A DNA stretch of 64,000 bases from a virus: IMG/VR virus record IMGVR_UViG_3300017731_001834, positions 1 to 64,000 of that record. The stretch is one strand, 5' to 3'. Both the position numbers and the translations under genes were made by a program. Below, one piece after another: positions 11,601 through 37,619 of the stretch (the first letter of the stretch is position 1; every line of letters begins with the position of its first letter). The notes below the pieces were generated by a model. That model worked only from the letters and a program-made list of their open reading frames with translations, did not search any database and was not told the origin of the DNA.

Positions 11601-12086
11601 ATGGCTACATTAGACCCTAATGAAATAATGTTTACCCCTTTCGAACCGAAAACTAAAAATCGGTTCATTATGTATATTGATGGAATACCAGCGTATCTGA
11701 TAAGGGCAATGAACAGACCACAACTTCAGTTTGAAGAGATAGTTTTAGACCATATTAATGTGAAAAGATATGTCAAAGGTAAAGCTGCATGGCAACCTAT
11801 TGATATCACATTATACGACCCGGTTGTACCAAGTGGGGCGCAATCAGTTTTAGAGTGGATTCGTTTAGGTCACGAATCTGTAACAGGTCGTGATGGTTAT
11901 TCAGATTTTTATAAAAAAGATATAACCTTTAATTTGTTAGGGCCAGTTGGTGACGTTGTTGAGGAATGGTTACTAAAAGGAACCTATATTGAGAACGCTA
12001 ACTTTGGTGATTTAGATTATGCATCAAGTGACCCAGCTGAAATTACCCTAACACTTAAATATGACTACGCAGTCTTACAATTCTAA
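11601..12086 (+). CDS. 19: Tail tube protein (gp19-like)
   Basis: Subunit of the inner tail tube through which DNA passes. It has 161 residues, close to T4 gp19 (163). Recognisable features are the KNRFIMYIDGIPAYLIR N-terminal strand, the hallmark KAAWQPIDITLYDP, then AQSVLEWIRL and the C-terminal AEITLTLKYDYAVL. It follows the sheath gene in the T4 order 18-19. The ribosome site is GGAGACA. The gene is followed by a 50-residue membrane protein and the gp26-like gene, so the T4 order 18-19-20 is not kept. Confidence 0.94.
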   Translation: MATLDPNEIMFTPFEPKTKNRFIMYIDGIPAYLIRAMNRPQLQFEEIVLDHINVKRYVKGKAAWQPIDITLYDPVVPSGAQSVLEWIRLGHESVTGRDGYSDFYKKDITFNLLGPVGDVVEEWLLKGTYIENANFGDLDYASSDPAEITLTLKYDYAVLQF

Positions 12087-12319: not shown

Positions 12320-13066
12320 ATGTCTGAGTACAAGTTCCCTACTGAAATAGTAGAGCTTCCGTCAAAAGGTCATTTTTACGTTAATGGACACCCCCTATCA
12401 TCAGGTAAGGTAGAGATAAAATATATGACAGCGAAAGAAGAAGATATCTTATCGTCAGAAAATTTAATCCGTCAAGGTGTAGTAATAGACAAACTATTGG
12501 AAGCATTAATAGTAGACAAGTCAATAAAAGTAAATGATTTATTAACAGGTGATAAAAACGCTATCATGGTAGCCACTAGAATATTAGCTTATGGAAAAGA
12601 GTATAATTTTGAGTATGGTGGTGTAGAACAATCAGTTGATTTAACAGAATTATCAAATAAAGAGGTAGACCTAAGTAAACATACTAAAGGCATCAATGAG
12701 TTTGATTTTAAGTTACCCAACTCAAAAAGAGAGGTAAAGTTTAAATTACCAAATGGTCACGACGAAGCTGCGATTGATGAAGAGGTTAAAGCCATGAAAA
12801 AAGTTAATGAGACTGTTTCAACAGACTTAACGACCAGATTCAAAAAAACGATTATTTCCGTTGATGGTAAAACGGATGCTTCATTCATAAATAAATTTGT
12901 CGATAATGAATTTTTATCAGTCGATTCATTAGCTCTGAGAAAATATATTCAAGAAATACAACCAGACATTGACATGACCGCAAATGTAAAAGATGTCAAT
13001 GGGGAGGAGATAGAGGTGACGATTCCAGTCACCCTCCGATTTTTTTGGCCTACCGCCAACATATAG
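12320..13066 (+). CDS. 26: gp26-like baseplate hub / tail-assembly protein
   Basis: A 248-residue protein resembling proteins annotated gp26 (baseplate hub subunit) in T4-like marine phages. Signature stretches are FPTEIVELPSKG, KYMTAKEEDIL, RQGVVIDKLLEALIVD, DKNAIMVATRILAYG and a C-terminal FFWP. The frame ends at TAG six codons after a run of seven T. In the +1 frame the open frame runs from 13020 to 13259 and encodes a convincing continuation (FFGLPPTYRRDLHEQIFQLM). It sits between tube and tape-measure genes, where many phages place frameshifting tail-assembly chaperones, so it may act as one. The family assignment is from recognition, not a search. Confidence 0.75.
   Translation: MSEYKFPTEIVELPSKGHFYVNGHPLSSGKVEIKYMTAKEEDILSSENLIRQGVVIDKLLEALIVDKSIKVNDLLTGDKNAIMVATRILAYGKEYNFEYGGVEQSVDLTELSNKEVDLSKHTKGINEFDFKLPNSKREVKFKLPNGHDEAAIDEEVKAMKKVNETVSTDLTTRFKKTIISVDGKTDASFINKFVDNEFLSVDSLALRKYIQEIQPDIDMTANVKDVNGEEIEVTIPVTLRFFWPTANI
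13040..13046 (+). other. Run of seven T, candidate frameshift site
   Basis: TTTTTTT near the end of the gp26-like frame. A +1 (or -2) slip here joins the upstream frame to the open frame ending at 13259. A single surplus T from assembly would look identical. Confidence 0.4.
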
Positions 13067-13097
13067 GCGAGACCTACACGAACAAATATTCCAACTT

Positions 13098-13259
13098 ATG
13101 ATAAATTCAAAAGGTGGTTTCACCTTTACTGAATTATACAACCTACCGGTATATCTGAGAAGTTTTTATCTCAATAGATTAAATAAGTATTATCAAGAAG
13201 AAGCCAAAGAGATTAAAAAAGAGACTTCTAAGATGAAGTCATCTTTTAGTAAAAAGTAA
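13098..13259 (+). CDS. C-terminal extension of gp26-like protein, or separate small protein
   Basis: From the only ATG (13098) this encodes 53 residues: GGFTFTELYNLPVYLRSFYL, then a Lys/Glu-rich helix. The frame is open upstream to 13020, and the residues before the ATG (TYRRDLHEQIFQL) look like the same folded domain. No ribosome site precedes the ATG (ATATTCCAACTT). This favours translation as an extension of the gp26-like protein by frameshifting at 13040-13046, giving a product of about 315 residues. The tail-assembly chaperone gene pairs of other phages work this way. Alternatives are a gene broken by one inserted base, or an assembly error. Confidence 0.55.
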   Translation: MINSKGGFTFTELYNLPVYLRSFYLNRLNKYYQEEAKEIKKETSKMKSSFSKK

Positions 13260-13298: not shown

Positions 13299-13547
13299 AT
13301 GCCAAAATACAAAAATCTAAAACCTGAAATTATAGAGAGTTTTTTAGACAAGATTTTTGCAAACGCCGCAAAAAAAGCACAAAATGATGCTATCAAAAAA
13401 TTAGCTAAAAAAGATAAGACCTTTGCTAAGAACTACGCTACCCTCGTTAAGTTAAGGGATAAAGTCGAAAAGGATTTGAGAGCTAAGGGAATTGATCCTG
13501 ATGAAGAGGCGTTGAAAGCTATGAGGAAACTTAGAAGAAATTCTTAG
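13299..13547 (+). CDS. Small basic helical protein
   Basis: An 82-residue, Lys-rich protein predicted to be all helix (IIESFLDKIFANAAKKAQND; TLVKLRDKVEKDLRAKGI). Ribosome site CGGAGATTACT. It sits immediately before the tape-measure-like gene (9-base gap) in the tail assembly block, so an assembly or virion role is likely by position only. No family recognised. Confidence 0.6.
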   Translation: MPKYKNLKPEIIESFLDKIFANAAKKAQNDAIKKLAKKDKTFAKNYATLVKLRDKVEKDLRAKGIDPDEEALKAMRKLRRNS

Positions 13548-13556
13548 GAAACTTTA

Positions 13557-14831
13557 ATGTCTATTGAAAAGGTAACTCAAGAACGTTTAGATATAGCTCA
13601 ACAATTAAGACAAGAGCTAGCAAACATGGCAGAAATCCAAGAGGAAAGTGGAGAATCACTATCTAAACAGCTTGGTCTTCTTAAAGACTTTAATGTAATA
13701 AACAAAGATTTGTTAGCAAAAGAGAGTTTAAGAAGAAACGTTTCAAATGATTTTGCTAAACAACAACTAAAGACGATTCAAGGGCAAAATATAATCAGAA
13801 AGAATGTGGCGGCACAATTAGGTGGTTTTAAAAAGCTTATCGCTGGTGCAAAAACATTTAATTTAGTATTAGCAGCAAATCCAGTCATAGCTATCGGAGC
13901 AGCCTTAGTATTCGTTCTGACTTTAGTAAGTAAAATTAATAAAGCCCTAGCTGAGACAAGAACAAATCTTGGTGTGAGCGCTGTTGAAGCGGCAAAGATA
14001 AGATTTAGAGTTGAAGCTACTGGCAAGGCTCTTCAGGTTCTTGGTTTGGAGGCTAAAGATGCACAAGAATCTTTCGATGCCATAAGACAAACATTTGGTG
14101 GTATAGACCAAGCATCAAGTAAATTTGTATTCAATTTAGCCAGAGCACAACTTGTGACAGGCGCCACAACATCACAATTATCTGACTTATTAGCCATACA
14201 AGAATCGGTTACCTCATCCAGTAGAGAAACATTATTAGCACAATTGAGTACGGTATCAGCGGCTATCAGATTAGAGGGTGTCGCACCAGATGCGGTCTTT
14301 AGACAATTAGCTGAAAATGCAGAAGCTGTCGCACTAAGTATAAATGATGGTGGTGACAATCTTATAAAGGCAGCTATACAAGCTAGAAAACTTGGTGTAG
14401 AATTTAGAACAGTTACGGGCATCGCTGATAAATTATTAGACTTTGAATCATCGATTGAGAGTCAACTACAGGCTTCAGTATTATTAGGTAGAGAGATAAA
14501 CCTTGATAGGGCTAGACAACTAGCTTTGAATAATGATTTGGCTGGAGCGTTAGAAGAAGTGGTCACACAGGTCGGTGGTGAAGCAGAATTTAATGAATTG
14601 AATAGAATACAAAGACAAGCCTTAGCAGATAGTGTTGGTGTTAGTGTACAAGAATTATCAAGACTTGTCAGAGATAATGGTAACGCCGGTATAGAGGGTG
14701 TGGCCTCATCATTTACAGATGTTGAAAAATATCAGAACGAATCAATTAACTTACTAAACCAAGTCGTTAGAAATACTGACAAGAGTGCAAAAGCGAATAC
14801 AACAACAGCGAACGAAGTAGGTGGAGGATAA
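13557..14831 (+). CDS. Tape-measure-like tail protein
   Basis: A 424-residue, mainly helical protein. Residues ~1-100 are a long coiled coil; residues ~104-125 (LVLAANPVIAIGAALVFVLT) are a hydrophobic, membrane-type segment; the rest is Ala/Gln-rich helix with repeats of LARAQLVTGATTSQLSDLLA type. It ends in a Gly run (NEVGGG). This composition is typical of tail tape-measure proteins, which set tail length and enter the host membrane with the DNA. It is shorter than T4 gp29 (590). Its place after the gp26-like gene and before the baseplate genes supports the call. The ribosome site is weak (GGAAACTTTA). Confidence 0.65.
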   Translation: MSIEKVTQERLDIAQQLRQELANMAEIQEESGESLSKQLGLLKDFNVINKDLLAKESLRRNVSNDFAKQQLKTIQGQNIIRKNVAAQLGGFKKLIAGAKTFNLVLAANPVIAIGAALVFVLTLVSKINKALAETRTNLGVSAVEAAKIRFRVEATGKALQVLGLEAKDAQESFDAIRQTFGGIDQASSKFVFNLARAQLVTGATTSQLSDLLAIQESVTSSSRETLLAQLSTVSAAIRLEGVAPDAVFRQLAENAEAVALSINDGGDNLIKAAIQARKLGVEFRTVTGIADKLLDFESSIESQLQASVLLGREINLDRARQLALNNDLAGALEEVVTQVGGEAEFNELNRIQRQALADSVGVSVQELSRLVRDNGNAGIEGVASSFTDVEKYQNESINLLNQVVRNTDKSAKANTTTANEVGGG

Positions 14832-31438: not shown

Positions 31439-31475
31439 AAATGTGTCGTTCATAACAATAACAAGGAGATTCGAT

Positions 31476-34250
31476 ATGAAAAGTCGTAATCTAATTGCTA
31501 TGATGATGACTCTACTCACACCGATAATGTTGTTTTCACAATCGGTAACAGGAAAAGTTACATCAGAAGCAGGAGACCCCTTACCAAATGCTAACATTGT
31601 TGTAGTAGGAACCGAATTAGGTACAATTTCAGATGAAATTGGTACATTTGTACTTGATTTAGGTGCTGGTGACTACACAATTACAGCGACGGTAATTGGG
31701 TTTAAACCACAATCACAAACCGTGAAAGTAACAGAAGCAGATACAGATTTAATGATGGCTTTTGTTCTTCCACTAAACGTGATTGAATTATCAGACGTTG
31801 AGGTTTTGGCTTCAAGGGCTGATGATAAAACACCTGTTGCTTACACAACTGTAAGTAAAGAAGAGTTAGAAGTTCGTCTTGGGTCACAAGATATTCCAAT
31901 GGCTCTAAATACTACACCAAGTGTATATGCAACACAACAAGGTGGTGGTGCGGGTGATGCTCGTATCAATGTTCGTGGATTCAATCAAAGAAACGTAGCA
32001 GTTATGATTAACGGTGTTCCCCAAAATGATATGGAGAACGGATGGGTTTATTGGAGTAATTGGGACGGAGTAGCAGATGCAGCTAACTCTATTCAGTTAC
32101 AAAGAGGTCTATCGGCTGTTAATTTAGCTACACCATCAATTGGTGGAACTATGAACATCATAACAAATCCAGCTGGAGCTGAAAAAGGTGGTAAATTCAA
32201 ACAAGAAGGTGGTGCAGGTAATTTCTTGAAAACTACTTTTAACTACAATACTGGTTTGATGATGGGAGACAAGTTAGCATTGAGTGGAACTTTGGTTCGT
32301 AAGACTGGTGATGGTATCATCGACGCTACTTGGACAGACGCATGGGCTTATTATTTAGGTTCTAGTTTTCAGATGAATGAAAACAATAGATTTGAATTAT
32401 ATGCAATTGGCGCTCCACAACGTCACGGTCAAAATCTGTACAAACAGAATATCGCTACTTACTCACAAGAGTTAGCTGGTGATGTCGATGGATATGATGT
32501 CAATGCTTTTGCTGACGGTGCTAAGTTCCAAACAGAAGGTGGTCGTACATTTAATCAGAATTGGGCTCCTGTAAGTTCAGACTATACAGGTAAACAATAT
32601 TGGTATATGTATGGAGTTGGTGGACTATTTGGTGGTGGAAATCAAGACAGATATAACTCTGGTTTCTTAAATGAAAGAGAAAACTTCTTTCATAAGCCAT
32701 TAGTAAACCTAAACCACTTTATGACTATCAACGAAAAGACAAGACTAAGTTCAGTATTGTATTGGAGTGGTGGTTCAGGTGGTGGAACTGGTACATACGG
32801 TTCATCATTTAGAAAACCAGCTGTAGATGGTGAAAGGTGGTATAGAAGTTCACCATGGGGTTGGGATTGGGATGCAGCTATTGCAACCAATTCAAACAAC
32901 GTTGATGCTAACTTTGATGCGACAATGAATCGTTCAAAGGGTATTCTTCGTAACTCAATCAATCGTCAAGATACTTATGGTTTGATTTCAAAACTTAACT
33001 ATGAAGTTAGTGACGAACTTGAGATTCAACTTGGTTTAGATTGGAGAACTGCAGGTATAGAACACGCTCGTGAAGTTCGTGACTTACTTGGCGGTGACTA
33101 CTATGTAGACTATGCTGATGATAATGCACCTGATGGTAAAAAGGTCGGTTTAGGTGACATCATCGCTTATCACAATCACACTACAGTCGATTGGATTGGT
33201 GGATTCTTACAAGGTAACTACACTAAAGATAAACTAAATGTTTATGGTATGGGTGGAGTTTCAAGTATCAAGTATTCTTACCAAGACCACTTTACAGTTG
33301 CTGATGAAGTGATTACAGCAGATGCTATCTCAACTTTCCAAGTTAAGGGTGGAGCTATGTATGACGTAGATGATAATGTTAGTGTATTTGCTAACACAGG
33401 CTACGTTCAGAAACCACCTATCATGGATAACGTAATCTACTTTGATGGTACAGTCGCTTCAGACCCATCTAACGAAAAGTTCATCAGTTCAGAAGCTGGT
33501 GTAAACTTCAATACTGAGAATGTAGCAGTTAAAGTGAGTGCTTACAATACTGATTGGATGGATAGAAACCAAACTAAATCTGTAACAACAGGTCAAGGTG
33601 ACTCAGGTGATACTGACGTGATTTTCTTGAGTGGTATCAATCAGAAACACCAAGGTCTTGAGATTGAAGCTTCAATGAAACTTAATGACATGATTCGTTT
33701 AGACGGAGCAGTATCATTTGGTAAGTGGAAGTTTGATGGAGATGCAAAAGGTAACTATCAAGAGAATGAGTACAATGATGCAGGTCAGGTAATCGGTCTA
33801 AAGACCACACCTTACTCTTATGCACTTAATGGATTATTCGTGGGTGATATGCCTCAGACAGCTTATGTCATGGGTGCAACACTTACACCAATCAAGGGTC
33901 TTAGACTACAAGGTATCTTTAAGATGTACGATAAGAACTACGCTGATTGGAGTCCAAATGCACGTGAGTATGATGGAAGTGATGCTGATGCTGATAGAGA
34001 CCAAGTATGGATGGCACCAAAGTACAATCGTTTAGACCTACATGGTTCATACAAACTACCAAAAGTTGGTGGTCTTGATATGAGTCTAACTGGTCACATT
34101 TTCAACGCTCTTGACGCAGTTTATGTACAAGACGCAGTTGACAATTCACAATACAATGGTTTCGGTGATAAACTTCACCTACCACATAACGCAGAGGTAT
34201 TCTTAGGAACACCACGTTATGCTAACATTGGTATAGTTGTAAATTTCTAA
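31476..34250 (+). CDS. TonB-dependent outer-membrane receptor
   Basis: A complete 924-residue receptor for TonB-driven import of scarce nutrients. I chose ATG 31476 because ACAAGGAGATTCGAT precedes it and a classical signal peptide follows (MKSRNLIAMMMTLLTPIMLF, cleavage near FSQ-S). Residues ~24-95 are a carboxypeptidase-regulatory-like domain (VTGKVTSEAGDPLPNANIVV; GFKPQSQTVKV), then the plug (PSVYATQQGGGAGDARINVR, GFNQRNVAVMINGVPQNDME, SIGGTMNIIT), then a ~650-residue barrel ending in Phe (NIGIVVNF), as outer-membrane insertion requires. This layout is usual in the FCB group. No TonB/ExbBD genes are here. It has its own leader and terminator, and more CGT arginine codons than its neighbours by eye, suggesting fairly recent capture from a host. 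Confidence 0.93.
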   Translation: MKSRNLIAMMMTLLTPIMLFSQSVTGKVTSEAGDPLPNANIVVVGTELGTISDEIGTFVLDLGAGDYTITATVIGFKPQSQTVKVTEADTDLMMAFVLPLNVIELSDVEVLASRADDKTPVAYTTVSKEELEVRLGSQDIPMALNTTPSVYATQQGGGAGDARINVRGFNQRNVAVMINGVPQNDMENGWVYWSNWDGVADAANSIQLQRGLSAVNLATPSIGGTMNIITNPAGAEKGGKFKQEGGAGNFLKTTFNYNTGLMMGDKLALSGTLVRKTGDGIIDATWTDAWAYYLGSSFQMNENNRFELYAIGAPQRHGQNLYKQNIATYSQELAGDVDGYDVNAFADGAKFQTEGGRTFNQNWAPVSSDYTGKQYWYMYGVGGLFGGGNQDRYNSGFLNERENFFHKPLVNLNHFMTINEKTRLSSVLYWSGGSGGGTGTYGSSFRKPAVDGERWYRSSPWGWDWDAAIATNSNNVDANFDATMNRSKGILRNSINRQDTYGLISKLNYEVSDELEIQLGLDWRTAGIEHAREVRDLLGGDYYVDYADDNAPDGKKVGLGDIIAYHNHTTVDWIGGFLQGNYTKDKLNVYGMGGVSSIKYSYQDHFTVADEVITADAISTFQVKGGAMYDVDDNVSVFANTGYVQKPPIMDNVIYFDGTVASDPSNEKFISSEAGVNFNTENVAVKVSAYNTDWMDRNQTKSVTTGQGDSGDTDVIFLSGINQKHQGLEIEASMKLNDMIRLDGAVSFGKWKFDGDAKGNYQENEYNDAGQVIGLKTTPYSYALNGLFVGDMPQTAYVMGATLTPIKGLRLQGIFKMYDKNYADWSPNAREYDGSDADADRDQVWMAPKYNRLDLHGSYKLPKVGGLDMSLTGHIFNALDAVYVQDAVDNSQYNGFGDKLHLPHNAEVFLGTPRYANIGIVVNF

Positions 34251-35112: not shown

Positions 35113-35240
35113 TTGTATCAAAACATTTACTACGATAGACGTTTAAATAAAATGCATGTGTGGGATGATAAGCTGGTTATCTCACGTTCAATTACAAAAA
35201 ATATGCTTATGTAAAAAATAGGACTGGCACATTTGTATCG
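35113..35240 (+). other. Displaced N-terminal coding segment of gp43
   Basis: From TTG 35113, with TTGGGAAAT about 10 bases upstream, one frame encodes LYQNIYYDRRLNKMHVWDDK. From 35172 the gp43 frame encodes AGYLTFNYKKYAYVKNRTG and runs straight into the polymerase with no start codon until TTG 35241. Both pieces look like one polymerase N-terminus interrupted by a -1 frame change near 35170, equal to one missing A in GATAAG. Aligning this leader with the promoter region at 40877 also places a start codon near 35113. Confidence 0.5.
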
Positions 35241-37619
35241 TTGTATGGAGACAGACTAAAGAAAATAAATAAGTGGGACAAAGACCAACCAGAATTATTT
35301 GAGTCCGATGTTTCTCCTGAAATTAGGGTGTTGGTGGATAACTACACAGATTCAGACGAACCATCAGTAGGCAACAAGGTTATGATATTTGATATTGAGG
35401 TAGAAGTTACCGATGGTTTTCCTGACCCAAAGAGAGCAGAAAATACAATCACATCAATAGCATTCAATGACCCACTCACAGAAGAATATTATTGTTATGT
35501 CTTAGATACAAAAGATAAACTTGGACTTGGTGAATCACGAACCAAAAAAGATGGTGACATCATTGTTTCATTTTATGATGAATATGATTTATTAAATGCT
35601 TTCTTCAAAAAGTATATGGAGATACAACCAACAATACTAACAGGTTGGAACGTCGAGTTCTTTGATGTAAACTATCTTTATAATAGAGCTCAACAAGTGG
35701 TTGGTAAAGATATAGCCAATTTGTTATCACCAATCGGTCAAGTTCAATGGAGTGATTTCAGTAAAAGATATAAGATAGCTGGTGTTAGTGTTTTAGATTA
35801 TCTAGCACTATATAAAACATTTACATTTAGTCAAAGAGCATCATATCGTTTGGACGCAATTGGTGAGTATGAAGTCGGTGAGAAAAAGGTTGCGTATGAG
35901 GGAACACTAAATGATTTGTATGAGAATGATATAGATAAGTTTGTTCAGTATAACTTACAAGACGTAAAGTTGGTACAAAAACTTGATGACAAACTTAACT
36001 TTATAGACATAGGTAGAGGTATAGCACACTTGGGACATTGTCCTTATGAGGATGTATTCATGTCTTCTCGTTATTTAGAGGGTGCAATATTAGCTTATCT
36101 AAAGAAGAACGGTATCGTGGCACCTAACAAACCACCACGACCTAAAAAATTTGGTAATGATAAATTCGCTGGGGCATATGTACAAGACCCAATCAAGGGT
36201 AAGCATGAGTGGGTTTATGATTTAGATATCACGAGTATGTATCCGTCTTGTATTATGTCTTTGAATATATCACCTGAGACTAAAATAGGAAAGATTGAGG
36301 GTTGGTCGCCAGAAGAGTTTCTAAAAGATAATCACAGAAAAACTTATACCATAACTAAAGATGATAAGGGGATGGGTAAGTTTACAGAAAAAGAATTAAA
36401 AAAGTTTTTAGATGGTAAAGAGATTGGTGTAGCTACTAATGGTGTAATGTATAGAACGGATAAAGATGGACTACTACCTGCTCTTCTAAGAAAGTGGTTT
36501 GATGAAAGGGTAGAGTATCGCAAGTTATCAAAGAAGTTTCATGAAGAGGGTGATAGGGAACAATCAGACTATTTTGATAGAAGACAATACCTACAGAAAG
36601 TTCTGTTAAATAGTTTGTATGGTGTATTAGGATTACCCGTGTTTCGTTTTTATGATTTGGATAACGCAGAGGCTACAACCTACACAGGTCAAACCTTGAT
36701 TAAGTTTACTAAAAAGATTGGTAATTCATATTACAATAAAATATTGAATGACAACGAAAATCATTGTATTTATATAGACACGGATTCGGTGTTCTATTCT
36801 GCAACACCATTAGTGAAGAAAAGATTTCCTGATGTAGATGTAAATGATGAAGATAAAATGTCAAAGTCTATTCTTGAGATAGCCGATGAGATGCAAACAT
36901 ATTTAAATAAAAGTTATGACTACTTTGCTATGAAGTTTTGTAATTTAACAGAACATAGATTCGATATCAAACAAGAGGTTATTGCAAAAAGTGGCTTATT
37001 CGTAACAAAGAAAAGATATGGATTAAAGATTATCAACGACAATGGTAAAAAAGTTGATAAGATGATGGTAAAGGGATTAGATACAGTTCGTAGTAGTTTT
37101 CCTGTAGCGATGAGAACAATGTTAAGTAAGTTGTTAGAGGATATATTAATGGATGTCCCAAAGGATAAGCTAGACAAATTTATTATAAATTTTAGAGAAA
37201 GTATGAAGCTGATGGAGTTTGATAAGATAGCAGTTCCAACAAGCGTAAAGGGAATAAAAAAATATAGAACCGATGGTGGATTGTTCAGTTCATACGCAAA
37301 AGGAACACCAGTTCATGTTAAGTCAGCTTTATTCTATAATGATATATTAACGCATATGAAGATTTCAAAAAGATTTACAGAAATATTTGATGGTGAAAAA
37401 ATTAAGTGGGTATATTTAAAAAACAATCCGATAGGTATAGAGACAATGGCTTACAAAGGACACGAAGACCCACCAAAGATATTAGAGTTTATAAGACAAT
37501 TTATAAATCCTGATAAGTTATATAAACAAGCACTACACAAAAAAATTATGATGCTATACGAAGCGTTGGGTTGGGACGAACCCACGGATGCATCAAAAAC
37601 AATGGAACGTTTTTTTTAA
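35241..37619 (+). CDS. 43: DNA polymerase, family B (gp43-like)
   Basis: Main replicative polymerase with proofreading. From TTG 35241 it is 792 residues, shorter than T4 gp43 (898). Exonuclease motifs: FDIEVEV (D51, E53), WNVEFFDVNYLYNR, YNLQDVKLV. Polymerase motifs: DLDITSMYPS near 328, KVLLNSLYGVLG near 453, YIDTDSVFY near 511. The C-terminal end is a clamp-contact-like KTMERFF. TTG 35241 has no good ribosome site, and homologous-looking sequence continues upstream in the same frame to 35172 and then in another frame to 35113, so the intact protein was probably about 835 residues. Confidence 0.93.
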   Translation: MYGDRLKKINKWDKDQPELFESDVSPEIRVLVDNYTDSDEPSVGNKVMIFDIEVEVTDGFPDPKRAENTITSIAFNDPLTEEYYCYVLDTKDKLGLGESRTKKDGDIIVSFYDEYDLLNAFFKKYMEIQPTILTGWNVEFFDVNYLYNRAQQVVGKDIANLLSPIGQVQWSDFSKRYKIAGVSVLDYLALYKTFTFSQRASYRLDAIGEYEVGEKKVAYEGTLNDLYENDIDKFVQYNLQDVKLVQKLDDKLNFIDIGRGIAHLGHCPYEDVFMSSRYLEGAILAYLKKNGIVAPNKPPRPKKFGNDKFAGAYVQDPIKGKHEWVYDLDITSMYPSCIMSLNISPETKIGKIEGWSPEEFLKDNHRKTYTITKDDKGMGKFTEKELKKFLDGKEIGVATNGVMYRTDKDGLLPALLRKWFDERVEYRKLSKKFHEEGDREQSDYFDRRQYLQKVLLNSLYGVLGLPVFRFYDLDNAEATTYTGQTLIKFTKKIGNSYYNKILNDNENHCIYIDTDSVFYSATPLVKKRFPDVDVNDEDKMSKSILEIADEMQTYLNKSYDYFAMKFCNLTEHRFDIKQEVIAKSGLFVTKKRYGLKIINDNGKKVDKMMVKGLDTVRSSFPVAMRTMLSKLLEDILMDVPKDKLDKFIINFRESMKLMEFDKIAVPTSVKGIKKYRTDGGLFSSYAKGTPVHVKSALFYNDILTHMKISKRFTEIFDGEKIKWVYLKNNPIGIETMAYKGHEDPPKILEFIRQFINPDKLYKQALHKKIMMLYEALGWDEPTDASKTMERFF

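Follow-up and report, generated by a model that had tools for sequence, protein, structure and literature searches.

In this work we analysed a stretch of viral DNA of 64,000 nucleotides (hereafter the window) in which one gp26-like gene very probably gives rise to two tail assembly chaperones by programmed +1 frameshifting, probably assisted by a hairpin that lies shortly 5' of the proposed shift site. The arrangement of two overlapping frames on which this reading rests recurs in 225 of the 227 distinct loci sampled among relatives, and this recurrence supports a programmed frameshift, as had been proposed in the original prediction.

According to the proposed mechanism, most ribosomes would terminate at 13064 and release TAC-N, the gp26-like protein, and a minority would slip forward by one base with tRNA-Phe on a UUU codon that precedes a pyrimidine, inside 13040–13046. 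The shifted ribosomes would end at 13257 and release TAC-NC, a protein of about 312 amino acids (AA) composed of gp26 and a gp51-type C domain. The upstream hairpin would probably refold in the wake of the ribosome, driving it forward and making -1 slippage harder, with possible help from a GGAGG motif. By analogy with lambda gpG and gpGT, the two proteins would cover the tape measure and bring in subunits of the tail tube. The features of the locus are as follows.

11601..12086, + strand: tail tube protein, gp19-like, upstream of TAC-N (phrog_4542, E 1e-27)
12320..13066, + strand: TAC-N, gp26-like, zero frame, 248 AA, C-terminus LRFFWPTANI* (match to phrog_150)
13001..13009, + strand: GGGGAGGAG, Shine-Dalgarno-like motif 5' of the hairpin (GGAGG in excess across relatives)
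13012..13035, + strand: hairpin directly 5' of the shift site, core GGTGAC 13015–13020 / GTCACC 13028–13033 (predicted -9.6 kcal/mol, folded on the identical locus L018)
13040..13046, + strand: putative shift site TTT TTT T (UUU-Y), then GG CCT (T or C after an in-frame TTT in 225/225 +1 loci)
13047..13259, + strand: TAC-C, +1-frame extension GLPPTYRRDLHEQIFQLM..SFSKK*, in a frame open from 13020 (related to T4 gp51, C-terminal part)
13557..14831, + strand: probable tape-measure gene, by position (the relative L002, MW353176, is annotated with a tape measure there)

Two overlapping frames in the window and its relatives

The gp26-like open reading frame (ORF) ends in ..CGA TTT TTT TGG CCT ACC GCC AAC ATA TAG. 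As originally described, its stop (TAG, 13064–13066) lies six codons past the run of seven T (T7), and the +1 frame is open across the run, from after a TGA at 13017–13019 to a TAA at 13257–13259. In the window the +1 frame has no ATG, GTG or TTG 5' of the T run, and the first ATG inside it comes at 13098. The position of the gene, for which a tape-measure-like neighbour had been pointed out, is that of a chaperone: a gp19-like tail tube gene lies upstream in the window, and a tape measure is annotated downstream in L002. In the window the probable tape measure is assigned by its position; family profile searches with the product of 13557–14831 gave no match better than E 0.02. An 82-AA lysine-rich ORF (13299–13547, + strand) with no convincing family match lies between the chaperone gene and the probable tape-measure gene.

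Relatives were collected with N proteins as the only queries, which kept the search independent of the frame in which the C domain lies; viral contigs were scanned three times, and genome contigs and phage records once each. In each viral-contig scan the best 80 of about 600 candidates were taken, and the sample thus represents the nearest part of a larger family; of the 11 phage records that matched, six were taken and four (L002–L005) entered the counts. The 258 classifiable loci gave 227 distinct ones after removal of duplicates by 330 nt, with the window counted as L018 and with L136 left out because no stop codon is present within the locus. An HMM of the C domain was built from the first 84 loci, the N and C parts being modelled separately. 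With this HMM the C domain was found in the +1 frame in 219 of the 227 loci (E < 1e-3). In six further loci the +1 frame is open, with weaker matches in L220 (E 0.0022), L119 (E 0.0041, a locus cut by the contig end), L207 (E 0.012) and L005 (E 0.076) and no HMM match at all in L200 and L279. The remaining two loci, L268 (E 6.5e-22) and L201 (E 2.1e-4), carry the C domain in the -1 frame. Relatives with six T and one uninterrupted frame had been named as the finding that would speak against a frameshift; no single-frame fusion of the N and C parts occurs among the 227 loci, in all of which the N ORF is 232–267 codons long. These loci are related to each other, so the counts are not counts of independent events. 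The +1 frame bears the mark of purifying selection, since differences fall at codon positions 1, 2 and 3 in a ratio of 294/166/764 (64 locus pairs, each locus used once).

Among the relatives with names are Flavobacterium phage immuto (L002) and Microcystis phage Mel-JY01 (L003). The immuto annotation calls just the end of the C domain, as a 36-AA hypothetical protein, and in that of Mel-JY01 the C domain is a separate overlapping hypothetical protein; the frameshift arrangement would explain why gp26 annotations of both phages end early. A diverged subgroup is formed by L005 (a Streptococcus phage), L200 (a viral contig), L279 (a contig of an Erysipelotrichaceae metagenome-assembled genome) and L006 (a Listeria phage), in which the +1 frame is open and the C-domain HMM barely matches; a CGT (Arg) codon follows the site in L005, L200 and L279. 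In LIS04, which was placed in the tree and stands outside the 227 loci, the +1 frame is also open and the site reads TTTTTTA.

Both parts of the putative TAC-NC protein have homologues among the T4-like chaperones, in agreement with the proposal that the gene encodes a tail-assembly-chaperone pair. TAC-N matches phrog_150 (baseplate hub, E 1.5e-10), a family that also holds T4 gp26 and gp51. Its AlphaFold model (pLDDT 94.1) matches several proteins annotated as baseplate hub or T4-like baseplate hub assembly protein in a library of viral structures, for example one of Bacillus phage SP-15 (E 1.2e-17). When the model was compared with 571 PDB chains the top two were YqbN (3klu, Z 5.0), which we take to be a tail assembly chaperone, and the HK97 tail assembly chaperone (2ob9, Z 4.6), the alignments spanning model residues 126–216; these Z scores are low, and a Foldseek search of TAC-N against the PDB gave no significant match (best E 0.7), so that the resemblance of the predicted fold to YqbN and HK97 is no more than suggestive. 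The +1 frame had been said to encode a convincing domain, and this domain is related to the gp51 C-terminal family. The window TAC-C matches phrog_634 (baseplate hub assembly catalyst), to which the C-terminus of T4 gp51 belongs (E 2.9e-25), too weakly to be relied on alone (E 0.033, or 0.0047 in its own genome), and we therefore compared profiles of the C domains. The clade C domains (60 non-redundant of 84) aligned with the classical T4-like set (P-SSM2, S-PM2, phiM12, W-14, ViI, KVP40, HTVC008M and T4 gp51) with an hhalign Prob of 95 and an E of 3.9e-8, in a single comparison. The TAC-C model is predicted to form three helices (pLDDT 90.2). Pfam gave nothing useful for either TAC-N or TAC-C.

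The putative shift site, its upstream elements and the probable direction of the shift

The site was compared across the 225 +1 loci, conservation of the T run and of both frames having been put forward as a check of the original prediction. It reads TTTTTTT in 195 (three of them T8), TTTCTTT in 17, TTCTTTT in seven, TTCTTTC in two, TTTTTTC in one, TTTCTAT in two and TTTTTAT in one. In immuto the site reads AGC TTT CTT TGG. What all 225 share, including the 30 from which T7 is absent, is a TTT in frame with a T or a C after it (the UUU-Y rule), so that every site lets tRNA-Phe re-pair one base forward, on UUU or UUC. Where codon 2 of the site encodes Phe it is TTT in 205 of 205 cases, against a share of 26% for TTC among the Phe codons upstream in the same genes. 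In the non-redundant subset of 164 loci, TTT TTT T occurs in frame at the site in 142 and nowhere else in the same N genes (115,756 nt). The site has changed at least 14 times on the protein tree (TTC in first position six times, C at base 4 seven times), so the UUU-Y rule is not merely inherited. A UUU-pyrimidine precedent is said to have been described by Schwartz and Curran in 1997. The base that precedes the site is also constrained, as it is T in only 5 of the 225 loci where the codon usage of the same genes predicts 102 ± 6.5, and it is A in the window; a T there would create a -1 heptamer, and its avoidance excludes the usual heptamer of that type. Neither does the canonical -1 type (X_XXY_YYZ) match, as the C domain sits in the +1 frame.

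The RNA immediately upstream of the site folds more stably than expected. The minimum free energy of the segment from -36 to 0 is -7.67, compared with -4.41 in synonymous shuffles (113 loci, every second of the 225). With a control that keeps both the amino acids and the column composition, the segment from -42 to 0 has a folding excess of -1.73 ± 0.24, compared with -0.16 to -0.51 for other upstream segments (164 loci). A dinucleotide shuffle control run on every third locus (75 loci) gave a modest upstream excess of -2.0 kcal/mol, compared with -0.2 to -1.6 in other segments, and was less clear-cut downstream, where segments just past the site reach -1.6. Local hairpins of -5 kcal/mol or better are predicted in 96 of the 164 loci, compared with 39–50 in four column-matched resamples and eight in an upstream control segment. 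Their 3' ends cluster three to five bases before the site (53 of the 122 hairpins of -3 or better end at -5 to -3). Such hairpins are absent in 68 of the 164 loci; no hairpin is predicted in SagM (L005), and that of the cultured relative immuto reaches just -2.1. The registers of the hairpins vary among subgroups of loci, which suggests that the structure arose convergently or evolves fast and is not a single conserved helix. A stimulatory structure downstream of the site was considered and rejected, as the column-matched excess there (-0.67 and -0.92 kcal/mol) is barely above that of other segments (-0.16 to -0.59). The putative role of the upstream hairpin accords with published work: a hairpin placed 5' next to the E site is described, in the part of PMC6321510 at hand, as stimulating +1 and attenuating -1 frameshifting in a 70S system; the portion of PMC3639245 available likewise describes an effect of upstream hairpins on frameshifting, with spacing mattering for attenuation.

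GGAGG is found upstream of the site in 102 of the 164 loci, compared with an expectation of 12.1 ± 2.9 for the same encoded amino acids, and is missing from 62; it starts most often at -31 or -28 relative to the site. Known Shine-Dalgarno-like (SD-like) stimulators lie nearer to the shift site than the GGAGG of these loci, and part of the motif is predicted to be possibly paired in the window. An SD-like tetramer precedes 30 of 46 selected ORF starts of the window phage, compared with 11% of random stretches, which makes SD pairing plausible in its host.

Other routes to the same frame have to be weighed against the +1 shift. The most serious is a programmed -2 shift at the T run as suggested in the original prediction, which would yield the same frame with one extra residue; this mode of shifting is described for phage Mu in the portion of PMC5009743 consulted. 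Re-pairing after a -2 slip would be complete on T7, and hence in the window, would take place by wobble on TTT CTT, and would leave a third-position mismatch on the TTA and CTA variants. In contrast, a -2 slip at the TTC TTT Y sites (9 of 225 loci, seven of which have a +1 C domain confirmed by the HMM) would place tRNA-Phe on UCU, where a mismatch in the middle of the codon does not allow re-pairing, whereas a +1 slip on UUU-Y fits all 225 loci. We consequently regard the -2 shift as improbable. A separate gene in the +1 frame, with internal or coupled initiation of its own, is very unlikely: GGAGG could serve such a start, some ATG, GTG or TTG is present upstream in the +1 ORF in 122 of the 225 loci, and the Mel-JY01 annotation shows a separate ORF, but the other 103, the window among them, have no start codon 5' of the site, and 87 have none in the first 12 codons either. 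Internal initiation from GGAGG is thereby ruled out as a general mechanism, and a separate gene would leave the T run, the UUU-Y rule and the avoidance of T before the site unexplained.

Slippage of the RNA polymerase on the T run, producing mRNAs that differ in their number of U, would suit the 195 sites with T7 but not the 30 without it, nor the avoidance of T before the run, and is slightly less likely still. As for an error of one T in sequencing or assembly, or a broken gene, the homopolymer is a context in which such an error could arise and nothing specific speaks for it. Against it stand the presence of T7 in two IMG/VR records, L018 (identical at the locus) and L008 (96% identical protein), the same arrangement in 225 of 227 loci and the selection on the +1 frame; conservation rules out a homopolymer error, and this explanation as a whole retains a negligible probability. 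Programmed +1 frameshifting on UUU-Y remains by far the most probable reading.

Known frameshifting systems and a possible evolution of shift direction

The T4-like tail assembly chaperones TAC-N/TAC-NC (gp26/gp51) and their frameshifting are reportedly the subject of a 2022 study by Vladimirov, Gautam and Davidson. No +1 member of the T4-like chaperones was found in the titles and abstract openings that our literature searches listed, and the 2022 study may report some. The type of system is known and frameshifting of T4-like chaperones is published; as far as our searches tell, the +1 direction and its likely signal are new. The +1 slip proposed here resembles that of prfB (RF2), in which the P-site tRNA slips forward at CUU U beside an adjoining stop codon under stimulation by an upstream duplex: the CTT T variant is close to CUU U, and a duplex upstream would also stimulate. 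Unlike prfB, the present sites have no stop codon beside the slip codon, and their SD-like motif lies far upstream.

In the passages available, PMC10885494 and PMC12846349 cite that some T4-like phages have one gene for the short chaperone and another for the long one, and that others use frameshifting, which matches the gp26/gp51 architecture seen here, and PMC12846349 describes -1 poly-T signals in T4-like TAC-N genes. A 2016 review, in the portion consulted, presents T4 as the exception to tail-chaperone frameshifting (PMC5009743). The same portion describes lambda gpG/gpGT, in which one gene yields a short and a long chaperone that act on the tape measure protein; here a short and a frameshifted long product of this type are conserved as a sequence arrangement (225/227), and the lambda shift is -1 whereas the window clade uses the +1 frame. 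It also describes the G-T frameshift of the archaeal myovirus HSTV-2 as very likely +1, which means that +1 sites in tail chaperone genes are not in themselves new, and the likeness of this archaeal virus to the window clade is one of shift direction. In the Vandenendeviridae (phage Adele), the part of PMC12846349 at hand describes a poly-T site at the end of TAC-N that is conserved across 56 alleles; in contrast with the window clade, this site is GTTTTT and the shift is -1.

Within the T4-like phages the likeness extends to both parts of the protein, through phrog_150 for the N part and the relation of the C domain to the classical TAC-C. Seven classical phages (P-SSM2, S-PM2, HTVC008M, phiM12, KVP40, ViI and W-14) carry the C domain at the end of gp26, in the -1 frame (five read directly, HTVC008M and KVP40 from coordinates), whereas in the window clade the frame is +1, the site follows UUU-Y and many of the loci have a hairpin upstream. 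In the two cyanophages among the seven the heptamer T_TTT_TTC is preceded, nine bases 5', by GGAGGG (read by eye). T4 itself has separate genes 26 and 51 (gp26 taken from L088); the gp51 ORF spans both domains and gp26 the first only, and the two are similar (E 2e-6, one comparison). The window instead has one gene with overlapping frames, and so resembles the frameshifting branch of the family rather than T4.

In a FastTree phylogeny rooted on the cyanophages, with long-branch warnings for T4, ViI, W-14, KVP40, phiM12 and L005, the 165 +1 loci (LIS04 included) form one clade with local support of 99, inside which L201 and L268 are the only -1 exceptions among the sampled loci. Both appear to be natural reversals of frameshift direction, with heptamers T_TTT_TTC in L201 and A_AAT_TTC in L268 and with AAT before the site in each. 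It is about as likely as not that a large, mostly metagenomic T4-like branch turned from -1 to +1 by means of UUU-Y, a refolding hairpin and an SD-like motif, and that two nested lineages went back to -1 by means of canonical heptamers. In that event the site would, to our knowledge, be the first natural +1 site of a phage to depend on an upstream hairpin, and the family would document how frameshift direction evolved naturally in a single homologous gene. The hundreds of natural variants, with the two direction reversals, offer a testbed for the rules of +1 versus -1 shifting and of upstream hairpins.

Other observations in the window

A one-base puzzle similar to that of gp26 had been proposed for gp43. 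A change of frame is indeed apparent by eye at about 35135–35260 (+ strand), where the N-terminus of the gp43 DNA polymerase (MHVWDDK..) is out of frame with the main ORF (35241–37619); no slippery run was seen at the frame change, which therefore looks unlike that of gp26. At 31443–34250 (+ strand), amid phage genes, lies a gene for a 935-AA TonB-dependent-receptor-like protein (Pfam Plug and CarboxypepD_reg), in a stretch with a GC content of 0.37–0.40, compared with 0.32–0.34 from 34 kb on. Capture of a receptor gene or chimerism of the assembly could account for it; the protein matches 12 phage records, and the ten listed are metagenomic or faecal contigs.
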